Part shown: piece after piece, positions 3,846 through 51,921 of the stretch
Position numbering within the stretch: the first letter of the stretch is position 1
Layout: each line of letters starts with the position of its first letter
NCBI GenBank assembly: GCA_009837085.1
Contig: VXUF01000055.1
Location: 1 to 52,782, forward strand
Reading direction: 5' to 3'
From: Holophagales bacterium
GTDB taxonomy: Bacteria; Acidobacteriota; Thermoanaerobaculia; Multivoradales; Multivoraceae
Length of the DNA: 52,782 nt
Position numbers and translations under genes: made by a program
The notes under the pieces: model-generated
The model's input: the letters and a program-made list of their open reading frames with translations, nothing else
The model's database searches: none
Told to the model about the DNA's origin: nothing

Positions 3846-3874
3846 CCGATCCCGACCGGCAAGAAAGGACCCCG

Positions 3875-4414
3875 ATGGCTCGACTCCCTTACCTCGACGT
3901 AGACGATCTCGCTCCCGAGGACCAGAGACTTCTCGATCCGCCGCTCAACATCTTCAGGGTCCTCGCTTACTGCCCTGAGGGCGCCCGTGCGTTCGGCCGT
4001 CTGGGCCTCTGGATTCGCTTCAAGACAAAGCTCGATCCGCGCCTGCGCCAGATGGCGATCCTCCGTGTCGGCGCCGTCACCCAGACCGACTACGAGTACA
4101 GCCACCACATCGAACTGGGCCGGCAGTTCGGCCTGTCCGACGGCGACATCCGGTCCGTCGTCGCGGGGCCGGAGGACGAATCGCTGACGGAAGTCGAACG
4201 GCTCGTCCTCACGGCGGCCGACGAGATGACGAACGGTGTCGGCATCGGCGCCGAGACCTTCAAGGCGTTGCAGGGTCACCTCGACGAGGGAATGATGGTC
4301 GAGTTGACGATGACCCTCTCGTACTACAACGGCGTCGTTCGGATACTGAACTCGTTGGACATCGATGTCGAGCCCGACTACCAGCGCTACCTGGAGGAGT
4401 TCCCGCTGCAGTAG
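3875..4414 (+). CDS. carboxymuconolactone decarboxylase (CMD)-family protein, copy 1
   Basis: The 179-residue cytoplasmic protein belongs to the CMD/AhpD-like helical family. The start ATG 3875 follows AAGAAAGGA; the longer frame from 3827 overlaps the tannase and is rejected. The core LRQMAILRVGAVTQTDYEYSHHIELG (residues about 65-90) has the family signature, but at the usual redox CxxC position it carries E-Y-S-H-H. It is therefore not an AhpD-type peroxidase, and is closer to decarboxylase or other CMD enzymes. A same-length paralog (5361-5900) lies beyond the SDR and shares most of its sequence, including an identical MARLPYLDVDDLAPED start. The reaction is unknown. Confidence 0.85.
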   Translation: MARLPYLDVDDLAPEDQRLLDPPLNIFRVLAYCPEGARAFGRLGLWIRFKTKLDPRLRQMAILRVGAVTQTDYEYSHHIELGRQFGLSDGDIRSVVAGPEDESLTEVERLVLTAADEMTNGVGIGAETFKALQGHLDEGMMVELTMTLSYYNGVVRILNSLDIDVEPDYQRYLEEFPLQ

Positions 4415-5313: not shown

Positions 5314-5360
5314 CTGGCGCCGCCGGCGCTGACGATGCCGACCCGCAAGAGAGGATCGCG

Positions 5361-5900
5361 ATGGCTCGACTCCCCTACCTCGACGTGGACGATCTCGCAC
5401 CCGAAGACCGGGAGCTGCTCGACCGGCCGATCAACCTGGCGCGGATGCTCGCGCACAGTCCCGCGGGGACGCGTGCCTTCCGCCACACGGGCGCCTGGAT
5501 CCGCCACAAGTCACGCTTCGATACTCGGCTGCGCGAGATGGCCATCCTGCGCATCGGCGTCATCACGCGCACCGACTACGAGTACAGCCACCACATCGAA
5601 CTCGGCCGCCAGTTCGGCATGTCCGACGACGACATCCGCGCCGTCATCGCGGGGCCGGAAGCCGGGGAACTCCCGGAGCTCGAACGGCTCGTCCTCACCG
5701 CCGCCGACGAAGCGACCGAGGGCCTCAGCATCAGCACCGGGACCTTCGAGGCCCTAAGGCGGCACCTGGACGAGGAACTCCTCGTCGAACTAACGATCAT
5801 CGTCTCCTACTACAACGCCGTCGTGCGAATGCTCCGATCCCTGGGGATCGACGTCGAGCCCGGCTACGAGCGGTACCTGGAGGAGTTCCCGCTTCCGTAA
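5361..5900 (+). CDS. carboxymuconolactone decarboxylase (CMD)-family protein, copy 2
   Basis: A 179-residue paralog of 3875-4414, with the same length, the same MARLPYLDVDDLAPED opening and the same EFPLP/EFPLQ end. The start ATG 5361 follows GAGAGGATCGCG. The core REMAILRIGVITRTDYEYSHHIELG again lacks the AhpD CxxC. The pair appears to be a tandem duplication with the SDR gene between the copies. Both are probably cytoplasmic oligomeric enzymes acting on ring-derived intermediates; this is inferred from the family and from the esterase, tannase and dioxygenase neighbours. Confidence 0.85.
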   Translation: MARLPYLDVDDLAPEDRELLDRPINLARMLAHSPAGTRAFRHTGAWIRHKSRFDTRLREMAILRIGVITRTDYEYSHHIELGRQFGMSDDDIRAVIAGPEAGELPELERLVLTAADEATEGLSISTGTFEALRRHLDEELLVELTIIVSYYNAVVRMLRSLGIDVEPGYERYLEEFPLP

Positions 5901-16004: not shown

Positions 16005-17204
16005 ATGCATCGTTCCATCCTGATCGGCCTCTTTGGAGGCTTCTTCGCCGTCGCCGGAGCGGCACAGGGCCGGCCTGTCGTCACCGAGGCTGAGTTCCTC
16101 TCGGTCCTCGACGAGACGCACCCCGCCGTTCGCGAGAGCGCCGGGGCCGTGGGGCTCGCGGAGGCCCGTCTGCTGGCGGCCCGGACACTCGACAATCCCG
16201 TCGTCGAGGCCGTGCGGGAGGATCCCGGCGGTCCGATCGGCCAGACGGACGTTCTCGTTTCCTGGCAGATTCCCGGCGCCGAGCGCGGCCCGGAGATTCG
16301 GGCCCGGGAAGGCGAGATCGGGGCTGCCCGTCGCGGGCTGGCGCACGAGCTGCTGGGCTACCGCCTGGCGATGAGGGAGGCCTATGCCGGCTGGGCGGTG
16401 GCCGACGCGCGGCGGCAACGACTAACGCTCCAGGCTGAGCGGGTCGGGTCGCTTGCGCAACGTGAGGCCGTTCGCGCGGAGAGGGGGGAAGCGTCCGGAC
16501 TCGAAGCTCGCCGGCTGGGTTTGGCCGCCGCCACGCTGCGGTCCCGCGTCGCGCTCGCCGCCGGGGCGAGCGAACGGGCTAGAGCCGAAGCGGCAGCCTG
16601 GCATCCCGGCCTGCCGGCGAACGCGCGGCCGGTTCTGCCCGAACTGCGGGCCGCGCCGTCGCTGGATGGTGCGGACGTCCGCGTGCGTGCCGCGGAGGCG
16701 GACCTGGCGGCGGCCGAACTGGTCCAGCTTGCGACCCGGCCGATCGTGGCCTCGCCGGAGGTCACAGTGGGCTGGCGCCGGCAGGATCTGACCCCCGGCG
16801 CCGTCGACGGGCCGATCTTCGGCGTCGCCTGGTCCGTTCCGCTCTTCGACCGGCGGCAGGCGGCGCGGCAGAGCGCCGGCGCCGGCCTGGAGGCCGCTCG
16901 GGCGCGGCTCGAACTCGCGGAGCGGGAGTCCGCGGCCGCGCGGAACGCGGCCAGCACGAACTTCGCACGACTCGCCGCCGCCCTCGCCGAGGCCCGCGAG
17001 GAACTCGGCGCCACCGAACGGATGCTGGACAGCGCGGAGGCGGCCTTTCGACAGGGCGAAGCCGGCTTGACCGATCTGCTGGAGACACACCGCTCGGTGA
17101 CCGAGGCGGAGCTGGCGGTGCTTGATCTGCATGAGGCGGCGCTGGCGGCGCACCGGGAACTCGAACGGCTGGCGGCGAGCCGGGAAGGAGGGTCAGGGTC
17201 ATGA
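16005..17204 (+). CDS. outer-membrane efflux protein, TolC/CzcC-type
   Basis: The 399-residue outer-membrane channel component of the tripartite efflux system encoded downstream. Start ATG 16005 follows GAAAGGAG and opens a Sec signal (HRSILIGLFGGFFAVAGAAQG). The product is mostly long Ala/Glu/Arg-rich helices arranged as an internal duplication, as in OMF proteins (about 60-230 and 260-395). The late AFRQGEAGLTDLLETHRSVTEAE is the conserved OMF helix pattern. Its last codon overlaps the adaptor ATG at 17201-17204 (ATGA), indicating a single transcript. Confidence 0.88.
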   Translation: MHRSILIGLFGGFFAVAGAAQGRPVVTEAEFLSVLDETHPAVRESAGAVGLAEARLLAARTLDNPVVEAVREDPGGPIGQTDVLVSWQIPGAERGPEIRAREGEIGAARRGLAHELLGYRLAMREAYAGWAVADARRQRLTLQAERVGSLAQREAVRAERGEASGLEARRLGLAAATLRSRVALAAGASERARAEAAAWHPGLPANARPVLPELRAAPSLDGADVRVRAAEADLAAAELVQLATRPIVASPEVTVGWRRQDLTPGAVDGPIFGVAWSVPLFDRRQAARQSAGAGLEAARARLELAERESAAARNAASTNFARLAAALAEAREELGATERMLDSAEAAFRQGEAGLTDLLETHRSVTEAELAVLDLHEAALAAHRELERLAASREGGSGS

Positions 17205-18835
17205 CTTGGGGTGACAAACAAAGCGGATGCCGGCCTTGCGGCCGGCGGGGTTTCCTGGCCGCCTTCGGCGGCAGCCGGCGGGGACGCCGGCGCACCCAGT
17301 GTGTGGCGGCGCTCGTCGTCGTGGCCTGCGTTGGCTCGCCGCCCGCCGAAGAGCACGATCATTCCCACGAAAGCTGGTCGGTCACGGCTCTCGGGGAGCG
17401 GTTCGAGGTCTTCCCCGAGATCGACGCGCTGGCGGCAGGTCACACGGCGATGGCCCACACGCACGTCACGCGCCTGGCCGATTTCGCACCGCTGTTACGG
17501 GGAACGGTCGAGATCGTCCTTGTCGACGGGTCCGGCGAGCAGATCTTCCGCGCGGACCAACCCGCCGCTCCTGGGGTCTTCGACGTCGAGGTGACGCCCC
17601 AACGTGCCGGCGAGGCGGACCTGCTCTTCCGGATCGACGACGGGAACGGAGTCGAGGAGATCCCGGGAGGCGGGCTCCGCGTCGGCACGGCGGACCACGC
17701 GGAAGGCCTCTTGAAGGTACGGTCGCTCCCCGCTGGGTCCGACGGCGGCGAGCCCGTTTCCTTCCTGAAGGAACAGCAGTGGCAGGGCGGCTTCGCGGCC
17801 GCCTGGGTGCGGGAGGGCCGCCTGGCCCGGAGCGTCGCCGGCGTGGCGTCCTTCCGCCCACCGGCGGGCGGCGAGAGCACGATCACCGCGCAGGTGGACG
17901 GGGTCGTCCAGCCTCCCGCGGGGGCCCGCTCCTGGCCGTTCGTCGGCCGCCGCGTCGACCGGAACGATGCCCTGTTCCGGGTGGTTCCGCTGGTCGCCTC
18001 CGAGCGGAGTCTGGCGACCCTGGAAGGCGAACTCGAGGCGCTGGCGACGGAGTTGGAAAGCGCGCGGTCGCGCAGCTCGCGGCTCCGGGAGCTCCTGGTC
18101 CTCGAAGCGGTCAGCGAGCGGGAGGTCGAGGAAGCAGGCGTCCGCGCCCGCATGCTCGAGGCGCGGCACCGGGCCTCGGAACGGGACCTCGAATCGGCAC
18201 GTGCCTCGCGCGAAGGTGGAGCGGACAGCGCCGGCATCTCGCCACGGGCCCCGTTCTCCGGCCGGATCGCCGCCGTCACCACGACACCCGGGGCGACGGT
18301 CGCCGCCGGGGACGCCCTCGCCCGGCTGGTGCGGACCGACGGGGTGTGGATCGAGGTCGCCCTGCCCCCGCAGGATGCACGGCGGCTCATGGACGCGGGC
18401 CTGCGCGGTCTGGTGCTCGACGACCCGGAGAGCGGGCCGGTACGGGTCGAAGGCGGCCTCTCCCTCGTCTCGATCTCGCCGGAGATCTCGCCACGCACCG
18501 GCACCGTCACCGTTCTGCTCGAGGCCCCGGGCATCGCAGGCACCGGCTTCGCCCTTGGATCAACGGTGGCGGCGCAGGTCCTGATGGCCGGCGACGAGAG
18601 CGGCATCGTCGTGCCCGCCTCGGCCCTGGTCGACGACGGCGGCGTGCCAGTCGTCTTCTTGCAACTGTCCGGCGAGGACTTCCAGCGGCAGACGGTGACC
18701 GTGCTCGGCCGGCAGGGGGACCGCGTGCTGGTGGGCGGCCTGACCCCCGGCCAGCGCCTGGTGACCCGCGGCGGGGACGCCATCCGTCGTTCGTCCCTCA
18801 TGGCGAGCGGCGAAGCCCACGGCCACGTCCACTGA
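17201..18835 (+). CDS. efflux RND periplasmic adaptor (HlyD/CzcB-like) with repeat-derived N-terminus
   Basis: The 544-residue membrane-fusion protein links the RND pump to the outer-membrane channel. Start ATG 17201 has GGAAGGAGGG upstream and overlaps the OMF stop. Codons of about residues 10-34 are a copy of the dispersed hairpin repeat read in frame, joined to a hydrophobic VAALVVVACVG, a lipobox with Cys at about residue 44. The mature part begins EEHDHSHE, has an N-terminal beta domain, a barrel/lipoyl domain (SPRAPFSGRIAAVTTTPGATVAAGD), a coiled coil (about 265-340) and ends GEAHGHVH. His-rich termini suggest metal binding. A GTG at 17302 would skip the repeat but leave a signal without a basic n-region. 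Confidence 0.85.
   Translation: MTWGDKQSGCRPCGRRGFLAAFGGSRRGRRRTQCVAALVVVACVGSPPAEEHDHSHESWSVTALGERFEVFPEIDALAAGHTAMAHTHVTRLADFAPLLRGTVEIVLVDGSGEQIFRADQPAAPGVFDVEVTPQRAGEADLLFRIDDGNGVEEIPGGGLRVGTADHAEGLLKVRSLPAGSDGGEPVSFLKEQQWQGGFAAAWVREGRLARSVAGVASFRPPAGGESTITAQVDGVVQPPAGARSWPFVGRRVDRNDALFRVVPLVASERSLATLEGELEALATELESARSRSSRLRELLVLEAVSEREVEEAGVRARMLEARHRASERDLESARASREGGADSAGISPRAPFSGRIAAVTTTPGATVAAGDALARLVRTDGVWIEVALPPQDARRLMDAGLRGLVLDDPESGPVRVEGGLSLVSISPEISPRTGTVTVLLEAPGIAGTGFALGSTVAAQVLMAGDESGIVVPASALVDDGGVPVVFLQLSGEDFQRQTVTVLGRQGDRVLVGGLTPGQRLVTRGGDAIRRSSLMASGEAHGHVH
17228..17303 (-). repeat. dispersed hairpin repeat, copy 5 (inside coding sequence)
   Basis: Reverse orientation: GCCGGCC-TTGC-GGCCGGC hairpin, then GCCGCC-TTC-GGCGGC, then GCCGGCG-ggga-CGCCGGC and CACCCAGTGTG. 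All three modules are present. It lies just after the adaptor ATG with its ribosome site, and is read as Arg/Gly-rich residues (GRRGFLAAFGG, RRGRRRTQC). This is the only copy in the window inside a gene. Confidence 0.87.
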
Positions 18836-18845
18836 AGGCAGCGGA

Positions 18846-21800
18846 GTGGGACCGCTGGAGCGACTTCTTCGATTCTCCCTGCGCCACCGCCTGCTGGTGG
18901 TGGCGGGGGCCGCGGTGCTCACCGTGGTCGGGGCGGCCTGGATCCTGACCCTGCCGGTCGACATCTTCCCGGACCTCTCGGCCCCCACGGTGACCGTGAT
19001 CACGGACGCCCCGGGGATGGCCGCGGAGGAGGTCGAGCTCCTGGTGACCTACGCGGTGGAGTCCGCGATCAACGGGTCGCCGGGCGTGCGGCGGCTGCGT
19101 TCGATCTCCGCCGACGGGATCTCGGTGGCCTGGGTCGAGTTCGACTGGGGCACGGACATCTACCGCGCCCGCCAGGTCGTCAGCGAGCGGCTGCAGCGCG
19201 TCGACCTCCCGGCGCAGGCCGAGAGGCCGGAGCTCGGGCCGATCTCCTCGATCATGGGCGAGATCACGTTCATCGCGATGACCTCCGGTCCGGTGGAGGA
19301 AGGCGGCGTCAGCGCGATGGAACTCCGCCGCGTCGCCGAGACGGTCGTTCGCCGCACCCTTCTGTCGATCCCCGGGGTGTCCCAGGTGGTCCCTATCGGC
19401 GGCGAACGGCGGCAGCTTCAGGTCACGGTGCGGCCGACCGCCCTGGCCCAGAACGGCTTGCCCCTCGCCGACGTCGTCGACGCCGTGGCGAAGTCCAGCC
19501 GCAGCCTGGCCGCCGGTTTTCACGTGGAGGCCGGCGAGGAGCACATCGTCCGCGTGCGCAGCCGAGCCCGCACTCCGGCCGAGGTGGCCGCGGCCGTCGT
19601 GCGGGTCGACGGCGGGATCCCGCTGCGGGTCGGCGACGTAGCAACCGTCGAGTGGGGACCGGCGCCGGTCCGCGGCACCGGCTCCTACCGGAACCGTCCG
19701 GCGGTCATCCTGTCCGTGCAGAAGCAGCCGGGCGCGAACACGCTGGACCTGACCCGCGCCATCGATGGCGCGCTCGGCCGGCTTCAGCCGGTTCTCCCTG
19801 AGGGCGTGGTGCTCGAAAGCGAGAACTTCCGCCAGGCCGACTTCATCGAGGTGGCGATCGGCAACGTCGCCGAGGCGCTGCGTGACGGGGCGATCCTCGT
19901 CATCGTCATCCTGGCGCTCTTCCTCGGGAGTGTCCGCACTACGTTCATTTCGGCCTTCGCGATCCCGCTCTCCCTGGTCACCGGGATCCTTGTGATCGCG
20001 GCCTTCGGTCTGCAGATCGACACGATGACGCTCGGCGGCCTGTCGATCGCCATCGGGCTGCTCGTGGACGACGCGATCATCGCGATCGAGAACATCTTCC
20101 GCCGGGTGGGGGACGAGCAACGCCTGCCGGAGGACGAGCGCCGCCCGGCCGAAGAGGTCGTCGCGGCGGCGACCCGGGAGGTGCTGAGCCCGATCCTCCT
20201 GGCCACGCTGATCGTCGTCCTGGTCTTCGTGCCGATCTTCTTCCTGCCGGGGTTGGAGGGTCGTCTGCTACGGCCGCTCGGCATGGCGTTCATCGCCGCG
20301 CTCGCCGCTTCCCTGGTGGTGGCGCTGACGGTGACGCCGGTGCTCGCCGTGCTGTTCCTGGGCCGGGCGCGGTCGCTCAGGTCGCGCCCGCCGTGGCTGC
20401 TGCGCGCCTTCCAGTGGGCCTACTCGCCGACTCTCGACTGGTGCTTCTCGCATCGCTGGGCGGTGCTGTCTTCGGCGGCCCTCCTGGTGGTCGTCGCGGC
20501 GGCGCTCCTGCCCGGGCTGGGCCGCAGCTTCCTGCCGGCCTTCAACGAGGGCTCGCTCACCGTGTCGGTGGTCAGCCCGCCCGGCATCCCGCTCGCCGAG
20601 AGCGATCGGCTGGGAAGCCGGGTCGAGGAGGTCTTGCTCACCTTCCCCGAGGTCGTCTCGACGAGTCGGCGGACGGGCCGCGCGGAGAAGGACGAACACG
20701 TCCAGGGGGTCAACGCCTCGGAGATGGAGGTCGTGCTGGCGCCGCTCGAAGACGGCCGGTCCAAGGACGAACTGGTCGCGGAGATGCGCCGCGTGGTGGC
20801 CGGGATTCCGGCGGTGACCGTCTCCTTCGGGCAGCCGATCAGTCACCGGATCGACCACATGATCTCGGGTTCCCGGACCAACCTGGCGGTGAAGGTCGAA
20901 GGACCCGATCTGGCGGTACTGCGGACGCTGGCCGCGCGGATCGAACAGGTCCTGGCGACCGTGCCCGGCATCGTCGACCTGTCGAACCAGGAGCAGTCGC
21001 CGGTGCCGCAGATGGTCGTCGACTTCGACCGCACGGCGATGGCCCGGTACGGCCTGAGCCTCGCGGACCTCGGCGAGGCCGTGGAGGCGCTGTTTCAGGG
21101 CGTCGTCGTCGGTGAGATCGTGGAGGAGGGCCTGGCGTCCGACGTCGCCGTCCGGCTGCCGCCGGATCTGCGGGCCGAACCGGACCGGGTCGCGGCTCTG
21201 CCCGTCTCGACGCCGGCCGGGGATCTGATCCGCCTGGGCGCGGTCGCCGAGGTGCGGCACGCTCTCGGCCCGTCCCTCATCCGGCGGGAGAACGCGCAGC
21301 GGGTGGCGATGGTGACCGCCAACGTGGAGGGCGCCGACCTCGTCGGCACGGTGGAGCGCGCCCAGGCGGCGGTCGAGGCCGAGGTCGACCTGCCGGCCGG
21401 CTACCTGGTGACCTTCGGCGGGCAGTTCGAGGAAGCGGGCCGGCGGGTCTACACGATGGGTCTGCTGGTCGTGCTCATCCTGGTCGGGATGTACGGCCTG
21501 CTCTACCTCGAGTTCGGCAGCCACCGCGACACCCTGGCGATGCTCGTCAACGTGCCGCTGGCCCTGGTCGGCGGCGTCGTCGCGGTGGCGCTGGGAGGCG
21601 GCGTCCTGTCGCTGGCGACCGTGGTCGGTTTCGTCACCCTGTTCGGGATCGCGACCCGCAACGGCGTGCTGCTGGTCAGCAACTATCGACGGCTGCTCGG
21701 CGAGGGGCTGCCGCTTCAGGAAGCCGTCCGGCAGGGCTCCGAAGAGCGGATGCCGCCCATTCTGATGACCGCGCTGACGGCCGGGCTGGCCCTCGTGCCG

Positions 21801-21932
21801 CTGGTGCTCGGCGCGGGCGAGCCGGGCAACGAGATCCTGAGTCCGATGGCCCAGGTGATCCTCGGCGGCCTGTTGACGTCGACGTTCCTGAACCTCGTCG
21901 TGCTGCCGGTGCTCTACGCTAGACGGTCATGA
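18846..21932 (+). CDS. efflux RND transporter permease (CusA/CzcA-like)
   Basis: The 1028-residue inner-membrane proton antiporter starts at GTG 18846, 10 nt after the adaptor stop. TM1 is VVAGAAVLTVVGAAWILTLP, followed by the usual VDIFPDLSAPTVTVIT. The two large periplasmic loops and 12 TM plan are intact, with a second-half repeat starting at about residue 535. The TM4 motif is GLLVDDAIIAIENIFRR, with paired Asp; heavy-metal pumps more often have a single Asp with Gly/Ala here, so the metal assignment leans on the His-rich neighbours. It forms a tripartite pump with 16005-17204 and 17201-18835. Confidence 0.9.
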   Translation: MGPLERLLRFSLRHRLLVVAGAAVLTVVGAAWILTLPVDIFPDLSAPTVTVITDAPGMAAEEVELLVTYAVESAINGSPGVRRLRSISADGISVAWVEFDWGTDIYRARQVVSERLQRVDLPAQAERPELGPISSIMGEITFIAMTSGPVEEGGVSAMELRRVAETVVRRTLLSIPGVSQVVPIGGERRQLQVTVRPTALAQNGLPLADVVDAVAKSSRSLAAGFHVEAGEEHIVRVRSRARTPAEVAAAVVRVDGGIPLRVGDVATVEWGPAPVRGTGSYRNRPAVILSVQKQPGANTLDLTRAIDGALGRLQPVLPEGVVLESENFRQADFIEVAIGNVAEALRDGAILVIVILALFLGSVRTTFISAFAIPLSLVTGILVIAAFGLQIDTMTLGGLSIAIGLLVDDAIIAIENIFRRVGDEQRLPEDERRPAEEVVAAATREVLSPILLATLIVVLVFVPIFFLPGLEGRLLRPLGMAFIAALAASLVVALTVTPVLAVLFLGRARSLRSRPPWLLRAFQWAYSPTLDWCFSHRWAVLSSAALLVVVAAALLPGLGRSFLPAFNEGSLTVSVVSPPGIPLAESDRLGSRVEEVLLTFPEVVSTSRRTGRAEKDEHVQGVNASEMEVVLAPLEDGRSKDELVAEMRRVVAGIPAVTVSFGQPISHRIDHMISGSRTNLAVKVEGPDLAVLRTLAARIEQVLATVPGIVDLSNQEQSPVPQMVVDFDRTAMARYGLSLADLGEAVEALFQGVVVGEIVEEGLASDVAVRLPPDLRAEPDRVAALPVSTPAGDLIRLGAVAEVRHALGPSLIRRENAQRVAMVTANVEGADLVGTVERAQAAVEAEVDLPAGYLVTFGGQFEEAGRRVYTMGLLVVLILVGMYGLLYLEFGSHRDTLAMLVNVPLALVGGVVAVALGGGVLSLATVVGFVTLFGIATRNGVLLVSNYRRLLGEGLPLQEAVRQGSEERMPPILMTALTAGLALVPLVLGAGEPGNEILSPMAQVILGGLLTSTFLNLVVLPVLYARRS

Positions 21933-21933
21933 G

Positions 21934-21979
21934 ACTGGGTGCGCCGGCGTCCCCGCCGGCATCCGGCGCGAAGCGCCGG
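21934..21979 (+). repeat. dispersed hairpin repeat, copy 6 (module A plus variant C)
   Basis: ACTGGGTGCGCCGGC with hairpin A, then CCGGCGC-GAA-GCGCCGG (7-bp stem, GAA loop). The second stem has a different sequence from other C modules but pairs perfectly, a compensatory pattern. It begins immediately after the RND stop codon. Confidence 0.85.
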
Positions 21980-22016
21980 TCTCCGGGTGGTGCTTCTCGC
22001 TAGGGTTGCCAGGATC

Positions 22017-23786
22017 ATGAAACAGCTTTCGTGCTTCGCCGCCGTCCTCGTCCTTCCCCTGCTCGCCGCCTGCAACGTCGATATCTCCGTCGACGGCGCC
22101 GCCGACGCGGACCTCATCGCCGCCGCCGGCGACGAGTACCTCGAGTTCGTCGCCGCCCGCGACCCGTACCTCAAGTTCCGGCGCGGCGAGAAGGTCGAGG
22201 ACTTCCCGGACTGGACGCTGGAGGCCGCCGAAGCGGACGCGGCCTTCGCCCGGAACCTGCTCGACCGGCTGGCCGGGGTCGACGAGGAGGCGGTCGACCA
22301 CGAGGACTGGATCTCGCTCCGGCTGCTGCGCTGGAACCTCAGCATGCTGGTCGAGGCGCCGACGCACTACTGGGCGGACTTCAACGTGACGCCCTACGCG
22401 GCCGGCGGCTTCAGCCTGAACATCCTCCACCAGGTGCTCGGCGCCGCTCCGGTCGGAACCGGGGAGGACCGCGCCCACTACCTCCATCTGCTCGACGAGT
22501 ACGCCCAGGGGATCGGGCAACTCGCCGACAAGGTCGCCGGGCAGAAGGAACGCGGCATCTACCTGCCGAAGGCCCAGGTCCCGGCCGTGGTCGGGATGTT
22601 CGAGGGCTACCGGGGTCGTCTCGAAGAGCTGTTCGTGCCTGCCGCCGACCGCGCCGGCGACGGGGCTGGCGACTTCCTGGACCAGGTCCGCGAGGCGGTC
22701 GAGACCGGAATCGACGCGCAGTTCGTCCGCCTGGTCGCCGAGCTCGGCGACGACTACCTGGAGGCGGCGCCGGAACAGGTCGGCCTCGGCACGGTGCCCG
22801 GCGGCCGCGATCTCTACGTCCACCGCGTGCGGATGCATACGACGACCGACCTCACGCCCGAGAAGATCCACGAACTCGGCCTGGAGCAGGTCGCGCAGAT
22901 CGAAGCGGAACTGGCGGCGCTGCGCGAGGAGATCGGCTTCGAGGCCACGTCCGAAGACACCGCGATGCAGGAGTTCCTGGACCAGGTCCGCGCCGACCCG
23001 CGCTTCATCGCGGCGTCGCCCGAGGAGGTCGAGGAGCGCTACATGGGCTACATCGAGAAGATCGAGCCCCACATCGCCGATTACTTCGACGTGCTGCCGG
23101 AGGCGCCCTACGGCGTCCGCCGCCTCGACCCGACGTCCGAGGCGACGATGACCTTCGGCGTCTACCAGCTTCCGACGTCCGTCAACCCGCGCGGCGAGTA
23201 CCGCTACAACGGCTCCGACCTCGAGAATCGCTCGCTGTTTTCGGCCCAGGGGCTGATCTACCACGAGCTGATCCCCGGCCATCACTTCCAGCTCGCGCTG
23301 GCGGCCGAACGCGAGGACCTGCCGCGGTTTCGCCGCGAGACGATCGGCTACGGCGCCTTCACCGAAGGCTGGGCCGAGTACGCCGCGAATCTTGGCAAGG
23401 AGATGGGCGTCTACGAGAACGCCTACGACCTGTACGGCCGCCTGGTCATGGAGATGTTCATCTCCTGCCGCCTGGTGCTCGACACCGGCATGAACCATTT
23501 CGGCTGGGACCTCGAGCGCGCCCGCGAGTACATGAGCGCCCGGGTCGTCTACTCCGACGTCGAGGTCGCCACGGAACTCCTGCGCTACTCCGCCGACATC
23601 CACGGCCAGGCGCTGGCCTACCGCATCGGCAACCTGGAGATCCTCCGCCTGCGCCGGAAGGCCGAGGAGGCACTCGGCGACCGCTTCGACATCAAGGCCT
23701 TCCACGCCGCCGTCATCGGCAGCGGCGCGATGCCGATGGTCGTGCTGGAGGAGCACATCGACTGGTGGATCGCGCAGCAGAGGTGA
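22017..23786 (+). CDS. DUF885-family lipoprotein, probable zinc metallopeptidase-like
   Basis: The 589-residue product starts at ATG 22017, giving MKQLSCFAAVLVLPLLAAC, a clear lipobox. The upstream frame crosses the repeat and is rejected. The family mark is YHELIPGHHFQ (His near residue 415) with FTEGWAEYAANLG about 35 residues later, an HExxH-like arrangement (HELIPGHH) with a downstream Glu typical of DUF885 proteins, thought to be metal-dependent peptidases. The rest is helical. The actual substrate is not established for the family. It is convergent with the ATPase gene, whose 3' end lies 9 bp away. Confidence 0.87.
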   Translation: MKQLSCFAAVLVLPLLAACNVDISVDGAADADLIAAAGDEYLEFVAARDPYLKFRRGEKVEDFPDWTLEAAEADAAFARNLLDRLAGVDEEAVDHEDWISLRLLRWNLSMLVEAPTHYWADFNVTPYAAGGFSLNILHQVLGAAPVGTGEDRAHYLHLLDEYAQGIGQLADKVAGQKERGIYLPKAQVPAVVGMFEGYRGRLEELFVPAADRAGDGAGDFLDQVREAVETGIDAQFVRLVAELGDDYLEAAPEQVGLGTVPGGRDLYVHRVRMHTTTDLTPEKIHELGLEQVAQIEAELAALREEIGFEATSEDTAMQEFLDQVRADPRFIAASPEEVEERYMGYIEKIEPHIADYFDVLPEAPYGVRRLDPTSEATMTFGVYQLPTSVNPRGEYRYNGSDLENRSLFSAQGLIYHELIPGHHFQLALAAEREDLPRFRRETIGYGAFTEGWAEYAANLGKEMGVYENAYDLYGRLVMEMFISCRLVLDTGMNHFGWDLERAREYMSARVVYSDVEVATELLRYSADIHGQALAYRIGNLEILRLRRKAEEALGDRFDIKAFHAAVIGSGAMPMVVLEEHIDWWIAQQR

Positions 23787-24956: not shown

Positions 24957-24972
24957 GGCCGGTCTCCGTTCT

Positions 24973-25017
24973 CGGAGTGTACTCCGAAATAGTTGAACTA
25001 TCTCGGAGTACACTCCG
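24973..25017. promoter_or_regulatory. 45-bp nested palindrome upstream of the AAA/DUF4143 gene
   Basis: Two 22-nt arms (24973-24994 and 24996-25017) are inverted copies with one mismatch and a 1-nt centre. Inside each arm is a smaller palindrome GGAGT-N2-ACTCC. The centre reads ATAGTT-G-AACTAT. The element ends 17 bp before the GTG start of the ATPase and is AT-richer than its surroundings. It looks like a double operator or a cruciform site. No regulator gene is adjacent, so autoregulation by the ATPase's own winged-helix segment is possible. Confidence 0.75.
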
Positions 25018-25111
25018 GGATCGCGTGGCGCCGGCGCAGTTCCTGAGCCTCGGAGTAGCCTTCATGTGCCAATGAAAGCCCTCCTCTTTGCGGTCTGATC
25101 GTGGCGGCCAC

Positions 25112-30102: not shown

Positions 30103-31302
30103 ATGATCAGGCGACCCAACGTGATCGGCCTCGCGGCCGCCACGGCAGGCATCCTCCATTTGGTGCCGGCCATGGCTGCGGGCCCCAACCTCGACCGCCC
30201 CACCTTCGTCGACGACGTGGCGCCGATCCTCCGCGCCAACTGCGTCTCCTGCCATCAGCCCGACGAGATCGGGCCGATGTCGCTGCGCACCTACCGCGAG
30301 GTTCGGCCGTGGGCGCGGTCCATCGCCCGCGCGGTCGAGAACCGGGACATGCCGCCCTGGGACGCCGACCCGGGCTACGGGCCGTGGTCGAACGACATCA
30401 GCCTGAACGACGACGAGATCGCTGCGATCACCCGCTGGGCGGCGAACGGCGCGCCCCGTGGCGAAGGCGACGAACCGGTCTATGGGCAGCCGGAGGCCGC
30501 GGGCGAGTGGACGTTCGGCGAACCGGACTGGGTGTTCGAGTTCGATCTCTACGAGGTGGCCGCTGAAGGACCGGACGAGTTTCGCGACGTGCTGATCACG
30601 ACCGGTTTCGAGGAGGATCGCTGGATCCGCGCGATCGAGGTGCAGCCGGGAAACCGCAGGGTGCTCCATCACTTCATTCTCTGGCGAGCCGCCGAGGGCG
30701 CGGCCTACCAGGAAGACTGGATGGCGGCCTGGACAGCGGGCGCCAAGCCCTACGAGTTCCCGGCGGGGTCCGCCCGCCTGCTGCAGAAGGGCCGCAAGAT
30801 GGTCGGCGACTTCCACTACCACCCGAGGGGCGAGGCGGCGACCGACAGCACTCGTATCGGTCTCTGGTTCGCCGAACCCGAGGAAGTCGAGAAGGAGTTG
30901 ATCACGCTGCCGATCTGGAACGCCGGCATTCACATCCCCGCGGGCGACCCGAACTACGAAGCGGAGGCAAGCCGTGTCCTCGAGGAAGACGTCCTGATTC
31001 ACGCGTTCACGCCGCACATGCACTACCGCGGAAAAGCCATGTTCTTCACCGCGGAGCTTCCTGACGGCAGCACCAGGGACCTTCTCGGGGTCAGTCGCTA
31101 CGACTTCAACTGGCAGACGACTTACCAGTTGTCCGAGCCGATCCGGCTGCCGGCCGGGACGCGAGTCCGTGTGAAGGCCTCCTTCGACAACTCGGTCGAC
31201 AACCCCGAGAACCCCGACCCGACGGTCGACGTCACCTGGGGCCTGGAATCCTCCGACGAGATGTTGAACGGCCTCGTCGACTACGTCGCCGCGGACGGCT
31301 AG
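30103..31302 (+). CDS. cytochrome c domain plus copper type II monooxygenase-like protein
   Basis: The 399-residue exported protein starts at ATG 30103 with signal (IGLAAATAGILHLVPAMAA). Residues about 35-120 form a cytochrome c-type domain with one haem motif CVSCH (Cys47, Cys50, His51). The rest resembles ascorbate-dependent copper type II monooxygenases: VLHHFILW, DFHYHPRG, FTPHMHYRGK and the Met-bearing GLESSDEMLNG give His and Met ligands in the family order. The enzyme may hydroxylate an organic substrate using electrons from the fused haem domain. Its last ten codons are part of a 45-bp repeat that recurs at 32523. Confidence 0.83.
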   Translation: MIRRPNVIGLAAATAGILHLVPAMAAGPNLDRPTFVDDVAPILRANCVSCHQPDEIGPMSLRTYREVRPWARSIARAVENRDMPPWDADPGYGPWSNDISLNDDEIAAITRWAANGAPRGEGDEPVYGQPEAAGEWTFGEPDWVFEFDLYEVAAEGPDEFRDVLITTGFEEDRWIRAIEVQPGNRRVLHHFILWRAAEGAAYQEDWMAAWTAGAKPYEFPAGSARLLQKGRKMVGDFHYHPRGEAATDSTRIGLWFAEPEEVEKELITLPIWNAGIHIPAGDPNYEAEASRVLEEDVLIHAFTPHMHYRGKAMFFTAELPDGSTRDLLGVSRYDFNWQTTYQLSEPIRLPAGTRVRVKASFDNSVDNPENPDPTVDVTWGLESSDEMLNGLVDYVAADG

Positions 31303-31315
31303 ATCGCCAGATCGT
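31271..31315 (+). repeat. 45-bp direct repeat, left copy
   Basis: Identical to 32523-32567 at 44 of 45 bases (mismatch at 31290). It holds the last ten codons and stop of the copper monooxygenase-like gene plus 13 bp of the 3' end of the minus-strand PhyH gene. With its partner it flanks a 1.2-kb segment, indicating that the segment arrived between two genes that once ended next to each other. Confidence 0.9.
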
Positions 31316-32522: not shown

Positions 32523-32567
32523 GCCTCGTCGACTACGTCGCGGCGGACGGCTAGATCGCCAGATCGT
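32523..32567 (+). repeat. 45-bp direct repeat, right copy
   Basis: Copy of 31271-31315 with one difference (32542). It contains the 3' end of the PhyH gene on the minus strand (stop CTA at 32551-32553) and a detached copy of the last codons of the copper monooxygenase-like gene. In both copies the two genes' stop codons overlap in a CTAG. Confidence 0.9.
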
Positions 32568-43012: not shown

Positions 43013-43130
43013 CGTGGAACTGGCGGCCCGATATGGAGCCGGCCTTGCGGCCGGCGCGTCTCCCTGGCCGCCTTCGGCGGCAGCCGGCGGGGACGCCGGC
43101 GCACCCAGTGGGCCGCCAGTTACCCGCTAG
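43009..43130. repeat. long inverted repeat holding both stop codons of convergent genes
   Basis: The left arm 43009-43029 and right arm 43110-43130 are 21-nt inverted copies with 19 of 21 matches; the inner 12 bp (AACTGGCGGCCC and GGGCCGCCAGTT) are perfect. Each arm contains a stop codon: TAG 43010-43012 of DUF3604, and CTA 43127-43129 of the sulfatase. The 80 bp between are a hairpin-repeat copy. The whole can fold into a large cruciform and could act as a two-way terminator. Confidence 0.85.
43038..43110 (-). repeat. dispersed hairpin repeat, copy 7 (modules C, B and A, reversed)
   Basis: GCCGGCC-TTGC-GGCCGGC, then GCCGCC-TTC-GGCGGC, then GCCGGCG-ggga-CGCCGGC and GCACCCAGT. Orientation is the reverse of most other copies. 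It sits as the loop of the long inverted repeat between DUF3604 and the sulfatase, and is the only copy framed by such arms. Confidence 0.87.
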
Positions 43131-51740: not shown

Positions 51741-51816
51741 CGGGTCACCTCATGCGCCGGGTTGATGGGGTTGAACTGGCGAGTATCGTAGCCGGCGCAC
51801 TACGCTGGGCCTGCCG

Positions 51817-51898
51817 CACACTGGGTGCGCCGGCGTCCCCGCCGGCTGCCGCCGAAGGCGGCTGGAAAGACGCGCCGGCCGCAAGGCCGGCGTCCGCA
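51817..51898 (+). repeat. dispersed hairpin repeat, copy 8 (modules A, B and variant C)
   Basis: CACACTGGGTGCGCCGGC, hairpin A, hairpin B (GCCGCC-GAA-GGCGGC), linker GGAAAGACGC, then GCCGGCC-GCAA-GGCCGGC (7-bp stem, GCAA loop of GNRA type). It lies in the divergent gap between the dioxygenase and the phosphoesterase gene, ending about 24 bp before the latter's start. Confidence 0.86.
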
Positions 51899-51921
51899 TT
51901 CGACGCCTGCCCAACAACACA

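Follow-up and report, generated by a model that had tools for sequence, protein, structure and literature searches.

Palindromic repeats within coding sequences

In-frame palindromic insertions are known in Rickettsia, as the RPE or 'protein-coding palindromes' (reviewed in PMC10969869). Intragenic REPs have also been listed, e.g. in O. terrae, with the caution that N-terminal cases may be misannotated and actually extragenic (PMC3733652). In Y. pestis, the signal peptide of YPO1552 is partly formed by the repeat RU-2 (PMC2759123; PMC2229807), and YPO1552 is among the enterobacterial in-frame RU-1/RU-2 (ERIC/YPAL) fusions for which a new exported protein, its signal drawn in part from the repeat, has been proposed (PMC2759123). 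A literature search on MIRU stop/start insertions found nothing directly usable.

The window analysed here, a 52,782-nt stretch that forms one contig of a 4.32-Mb genome in 164 contigs, carries a GC-rich repeat at the start of an efflux adaptor gene. Its family is like the RPE in that dispersed palindromic repeats lie in frame in unrelated, apparently still functional protein genes. It differs from them in being a GC-rich, REP-like family of the Acidobacteriota with a REP-associated tyrosine transposase (RAYT), read in several frames rather than as one conserved peptide, and in its position, a lipoprotein n-region with repeated turnover. With the REP/BIME elements and their RAYT (TnpA-REP) it shares short hairpins, a fixed end tag, high copy number, a repeat-flanked RAYT and a mostly intergenic distribution, near gene ends or between convergent genes, with an intragenic minority. 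The tag, however, reads CACTGGGTGC, or GCACCCAGTG on the complementary strand, in place of GTAG or CGTC, and the element is a composite of variable GC-rich hairpin modules. Unlike the listed intragenic REPs, the N-terminal copy described here has its translation backed by frame conservation across species. Unlike RU-2 in YPO1552, its contribution is confined to the n-region of an ancestral signal, and alleles with and without it are known. What is new is a REP/RAYT-like family of the Acidobacteriota that occupies the n-region of a lipoprotein after an ATGA overlap, with natural alleles of both kinds in abundance.

The favoured reading, to which a probability of roughly 85 % is given, is that translation starts at ATG 17201 and includes the REP-like copy, a tolerated extension of a pre-existing lipoprotein n-region, and that such copies are turned over in frame throughout the genus. 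The locus may serve as a natural experiment on an old doubt, whether N-terminal repeats are translated or reflect wrongly annotated starts, as the many alleles with and without the repeat retain the frame and leave the peptide free.

The efflux operon and the adaptor leader

The gene order (outer-membrane factor, adaptor, permease and a DUF885 lipoprotein) is that of a heavy-metal RND efflux operon:

16005 to 17204, + strand: OMF gene (outer-membrane efflux protein, TolC-like), an ORF matching Pfam OEP PF02321 (E=1.5e-14)
17201 to 18835, + strand: RND efflux periplasmic adaptor, HlyD/CusB-like, 544 aa from ATG 17201 (TIGR01730, 101 bits, above cut-off; Pfam HlyD_3; start conserved in 17 sequences)
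18846 to 21932, + strand: CusA/CzcA-family heavy-metal efflux RND permease (TIGR00914, 752 bits, above cut-off)
22017 to 23786, + strand: DUF885 lipoprotein (Pfam DUF885, E=2.4e-122), with a new ATG 3' of a repeat (MKQLSCFAAVLVLPLLAAC); relatives without the repeat start at ATGA

The named relatives of the adaptor come from MAGs of the Acidobacteriota (Thermoanaerobaculia), including Candidatus Multivorans thiocomprendens. These bacteria are sponge-associated.

The OMF stop codon, TGA at 17202-17204, overlaps the adaptor ATG as ATGA. The earlier note's description of this overlap and of a strong ribosome-binding site, both upstream of the repeat, was confirmed, as was its reading of the frame through the repeat into the lipobox: the ORF is open from ATG 17201 to the adaptor stop at 18835. 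The leader reads MTWGDKQSGCRPCGRRGFLAAFGGSRRGRRRTQCVAALVVVACVG, and Cys43 is encoded at 17327-17329. The relevant features of the leader are as follows:

17183 to 17192, + strand: Shine-Dalgarno sequence of the adaptor, GGAAGGAGGG, 8 nt 5' of ATG 17201
17220 to 17307, + strand: REP-like composite repeat of 88 nt, in frame as leader residues ~8-35 (genome self-comparison and family comparison)
17229 to 17246, + strand: hairpin 1, GCCGGCC-TTGC-GGCCGGC (DNA fold, z = -2.42)
17258 to 17272, + strand: hairpin 2, GCCGCC-TTC-GGCGGC (DNA fold)
17274 to 17291, + strand: hairpin 3, GCCGGCG-GGGA-CGCCGGC, the core unit of the family (DNA fold and family comparison)
17292 to 17301, + strand: conserved 3' tail GCACCCAGTG of the family, the 5' tag CACTGGGTGC on the opposite strand; GCGCACCCAG occurs 97 times in an 817-kb sample of the genome, with T as the next base in 95
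17303 to 17305, + strand: in-frame GTG at the end of the repeat, a candidate alternative start found by sequence, gene caller and leader comparison, disfavoured for lack of a Shine-Dalgarno sequence and of n-region charge
17303 to 17329, + strand: hydrophobic core and lipobox VAALVVVAC with the predicted lipidation site Cys43; a core and lipobox are common to repeat-free orthologues

The repeat is read between adaptor codon 7 and the hydrophobic core; its 88 nt contain no stop codon in any of the six frames. It is 95 % identical to 43038-43110 over 73 nt and 90 % complementary to 51813-51900 over 88 nt. By pattern alone, a positive n-region, a hydrophobic core and a lipobox with its Cys can be recognized as RRGRRRTQ-CVAALVVVA-C. 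The core behind the repeat is short, at nine residues. The repeat extends the n-region from ~7 to ~33 residues and places positive charges beside the core. Compared with the longer leaders of orthologues L010, L017 and L023, 48 nt are absent behind the repeat in the window, and the repeat-encoded Arg residues therefore abut the core directly. These residues would now serve as its n-region.

Probable translation of the repeat in the genus

Orthologous leaders were read in 18 other genomes of the genus. One (L012) was left out, as its contig ends inside the leader. The 17 usable sequences comprise the window and the full-length leaders among L009-L011 and L013-L027, less those without a measured length. 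All 17 retain the ATGA start and, from it, an open frame to the lipobox; a Shine-Dalgarno-like motif, by the motif list used, lies upstream in 15. The distance from ATG to Cys takes 12 values (51, 81, 90, 99, 117, 120, 126, 159, 174, 180, 213 and 300 nt), every one divisible by three. Twelve length states require at least 11 changes on any tree, a minimum that recombination leaves unchanged, and in an untranslated leader the chance of keeping frame over so many would be (1/3)^11, or ~6e-6. This is strong evidence that the predicted leader is translated from ATG 17201.

Initiation downstream of the repeat, at GTG 17303 or at a comparable internal codon, would instead make the repeat an untranslated spacer between the OMF and adaptor genes. 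The published caution on N-terminal REPs (PMC3733652) points in this direction, as does our in-house codon-usage gene caller, which prefers GTG 17303. An internal in-frame start is present in many orthologues, and in several an ATG or GTG would give a good signal by itself (e.g. L010, MRGSAAKSLPLPVAVLLLVGC). The earlier note had placed such a GTG near 17302; it exists in frame, but at position 17303. It has no Shine-Dalgarno sequence 5' of it, and its product, MAALVVVAC, would lack a positive n-region. Repeat-free orthologues have the ATGA start only, and the 12 leader lengths, all in multiples of three from ATGA, would be left unexplained. A start at GTG 17303 was rejected on the cross-orthologue conservation of frame, despite the choice of the codon-based caller, and downstream initiation in general is considered very unlikely.

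Downstream restarting is nevertheless real elsewhere in this operon. Another ATGA junction, between the permease and DUF885 genes, offers a natural control:

21929 to 22003, + strand: further ATGA junction of the operon, directly followed by a repeat; the ATGA frame stops at a TAG, 24 codons on (junction comparison)

In the window, the DUF885 lipoprotein restarts at ATG 22017, 3' of the repeat. In three genomes, that of the window and two relatives (G003 and G011), a repeat follows the stop, the frame from ATGA is lost and a new ATG is present. In a further genome (G008) the leader is extended by an in-frame repeat, and a plain ATGA without a repeat is seen in most of the relatives whose junction could be read. 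Since loss of frame at this junction can evidently occur and be repaired by a new start, the unanimous frame at the adaptor is informative.

Substitutions in the adaptor leader are spread almost evenly across codon positions 1, 2 and 3 (14/15/15 between L010 and L023, for example). The mature adaptor has a dN/dS of 0.11-0.19 (0.14-0.19 against the window), which denotes purifying selection. Together these results indicate that the frame of the predicted leader is under selection and its peptide is not visibly so. The values against the window also rule out a pseudogene or broken adaptor. An assembly artefact was ruled out by the same structure in independent MAGs, e.g. L010, L017 and L023.

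Leader alleles depart from the gene tree, and distant species share short near-identical tracts. In L010 and L027 the flanks are 89-100 % identical and the leaders wholly different; L011 and L020 have an identical leader within a tract of 97-100 % identity that adjoins a stretch of 76-79 %. This suggests homologous recombination at the leader site. The leader looks like a tolerant segment subject to repeated in-frame turnover and recombination.

Origin of the export signal

The earlier note raised the repeat as a possible source of the export signal, and proposed comparison with orthologues that lack it. Two such orthologues within the genus, L014 (MRWGDARIALAVLLLVGC) and L027 (MRWGEARIALAALLLTAC), have the same ATGA start, a hydrophobic core of the same kind and a lipobox, and orthologues from outgroup genera have ordinary lipoprotein-like signals, again with no repeat present. 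The export signal is therefore not supplied by the repeat. In the window, the repeat replaces only the predicted n-region of an older signal, together with its Arg charges. That the repeat is now the Arg-rich n-region beside the core, in frame from 17201, agrees with the comparative evidence.

True domestication, in which selection favoured an Arg-rich, repeat-encoded peptide as an improved export signal, possibly through a Tat-like RRGFLAA motif, would account for the repeat-encoded Arg directly before the core in the window, L013 and L015, and for the positive net charge of the n-region in repeat-bearing leaders. The peptide differs among species, however, as the repeat modules are read in different frames (GRRGFLAAFGG in L009, PEAGGDTAGRLRRQ in L013), and no codon-position constraint is apparent in the leader. 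The core and lipobox stand without the repeat, in outgroups too, and close relatives are still repeat-free. Domestication, as raised in the earlier note, is considered very improbable, and tolerance of the insertion in frame is what the leader comparisons appear to support. A Tat signal was ruled out separately: RRGFLAA has no hydrophobic core of its own behind it and is not conserved (RRVDLAAC in L023).

A role in RNA has also to be considered, in which hairpins after the ATGA would tune translational coupling of the OMF and adaptor genes, with the frame kept only because the leader must be translated. In other systems REPs are believed to function at the RNA level (PMC3733652), and RNA structure near the start region is strong (z about -2). 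The hairpins are variable or missing among orthologues, which argues against a conserved regulatory structure, and such a role is unlikely.

The favoured reading of tolerated lengthening can then be set out as a sequence of events. A genus-specific REP-like copy would enter a few codons after the ATGA overlap, probably by means of the RAYT, at a point within what was already the n-region of a lipoprotein signal peptide. Translation from ATG 17201 would carry the repeat into the leader, which signal peptidase II would remove by cutting before Cys43. The n-region may accept almost any stop-free sequence that preserves the frame and leaves some positive charge before the core; for this reason repeats could be gained, lost and exchanged repeatedly within the genus, each time by a length divisible by three. 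The effect of the repeat would be neutral.

The repeat family and its probable transposase

A search of the genome with the repeat gave at least 45 matches, with 40 of the 441 first-look candidates scored. Genome-wide figures rest on the 817-kb sample and the gene caller described above; the sampled contigs were partly chosen for carrying repeats, so that density may be somewhat overestimated. The sample contains 99 units of hairpin and tail (GCCGGCGGGGACGCCGGC-GCACCCAGTG, at most five mismatches), a number far beyond chance. Extrapolation gives ~500 copies per genome, a rough figure, as some of the sampled contigs were picked for their hits. The last hairpin and the tail are nearly constant, and the modules upstream vary, with several different GC-rich stems. 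Short hairpins (in REPs of 20-50 nt), a fixed terminal tag and copies in the hundreds, as in REPs, are accordingly all present.

The units are mostly intergenic (84/99 in the sample) and, as with REPs, biased towards the 3' ends of genes and convergent gaps. They occupy 24.5 % of convergent gaps compared with 7-10 % of others. Within 20 nt of a gene start there are four, against 12.3 expected, and within 20 nt of a stop 33 against 23, a modest excess. Every genome of the genus that was searched gave strong matches and more than 100 first-look candidates; searches of genera outside it returned no match or weak ones. On these searches the family is classed as genus-specific and REP-like.

The genome encodes one RAYT (NF047646, 81.2 bits against a cut-off of 80), with the HUH motif PNHVHVVV and a Tyr motif, and a match to TnpA-REP (PDB 4er8) at E=1.8e-5. 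A Y1_Tnp family match was found in 11 of the 16 members of the genus searched. The RAYT locus, on contig C152, has repeats on both sides. Within this region (L141:2300-3100) several repeats lie in both orientations, and the open frame of the RAYT extends through repeats at both ends. Neither a GTAG nor a CGTC tag was found beside the palindrome, where the consensus is CACTGGGTGC / GCACCCAGTG. The predicted family has the anatomy of a REP/RAYT system, though it is neither a GTAG nor a CGTC REP, and the RAYT probably mobilizes the repeats.

In-frame copies in other genes

Repeats of the family also occur in frame in other predicted genes of the genome sample, three of which were compared with relatives. 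A ring-cleavage-type dioxygenase (C23:63081-64079; L177-L185) has a 29-residue repeat-encoded insert within its first glyoxalase-type domain; the insert is present in three genomes (that of the window, G001 and G006) and absent from six relatives. An MFS transporter has repeat sequence in a loop, in the window's genome and G006. An in-frame piece of repeat lies in the leader of an amidohydrolase lipoprotein in one sequence (L222), and another (L221) has none. The leaders of a sulfatase (C152:13678) and of the proteins at C23:50450 and C93:32000 appear to be of this kind too, with starts that may be misplaced. As with RPE, in-frame insertions are thus found in unrelated genes (adaptor, dioxygenase and amidohydrolase) that have relatives without them. 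A single conserved peptide in one reading frame, as encoded by RPE, was not found, the same modules being read in different frames. The earlier description of the adaptor case as unusual was overstated, given these copies and the published precedents (PMC2759123; PMC3733652; PMC10969869).

These copies extend in-frame palindromic insertion to a GC-rich genus of the Acidobacteriota with a REP/RAYT-like system, and suggest that signal-peptide n-regions and ATGA junctions may be tolerant sites for the entry of mobile repeats into proteins. REPs tend to settle 3' of stop codons, and at an ATGA overlap a repeat so placed would fall in codons 2 onward of the next gene, which probably accounts for the position of the adaptor copy. 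More tentatively, it is possible that ATGA overlaps are recurrent entry points for REPs and lipoprotein n-regions a tolerant niche throughout the genus, where repeats would bring about rapid in-frame diversification of leaders, with recombination, and perhaps tune export or coupling.

Other repeated sequences in the window

Three further repeats were observed. At 24967-25023, between two divergent genes, a 28-nt inverted repeat with arms 89 % complementary, a TCGGAGTGTACTCCGA core and 1-nt spacing looks like a regulator binding site. A direct repeat of 45 nt, outside the REP family and 98 % identical, lies at 31271-31315 and 32523-32567, 1252 nt apart. The 300-nt stretches 3847-4146 and 5333-5632, which are 78 % identical, form the starts of two 179-aa ORFs and represent a local gene duplication.
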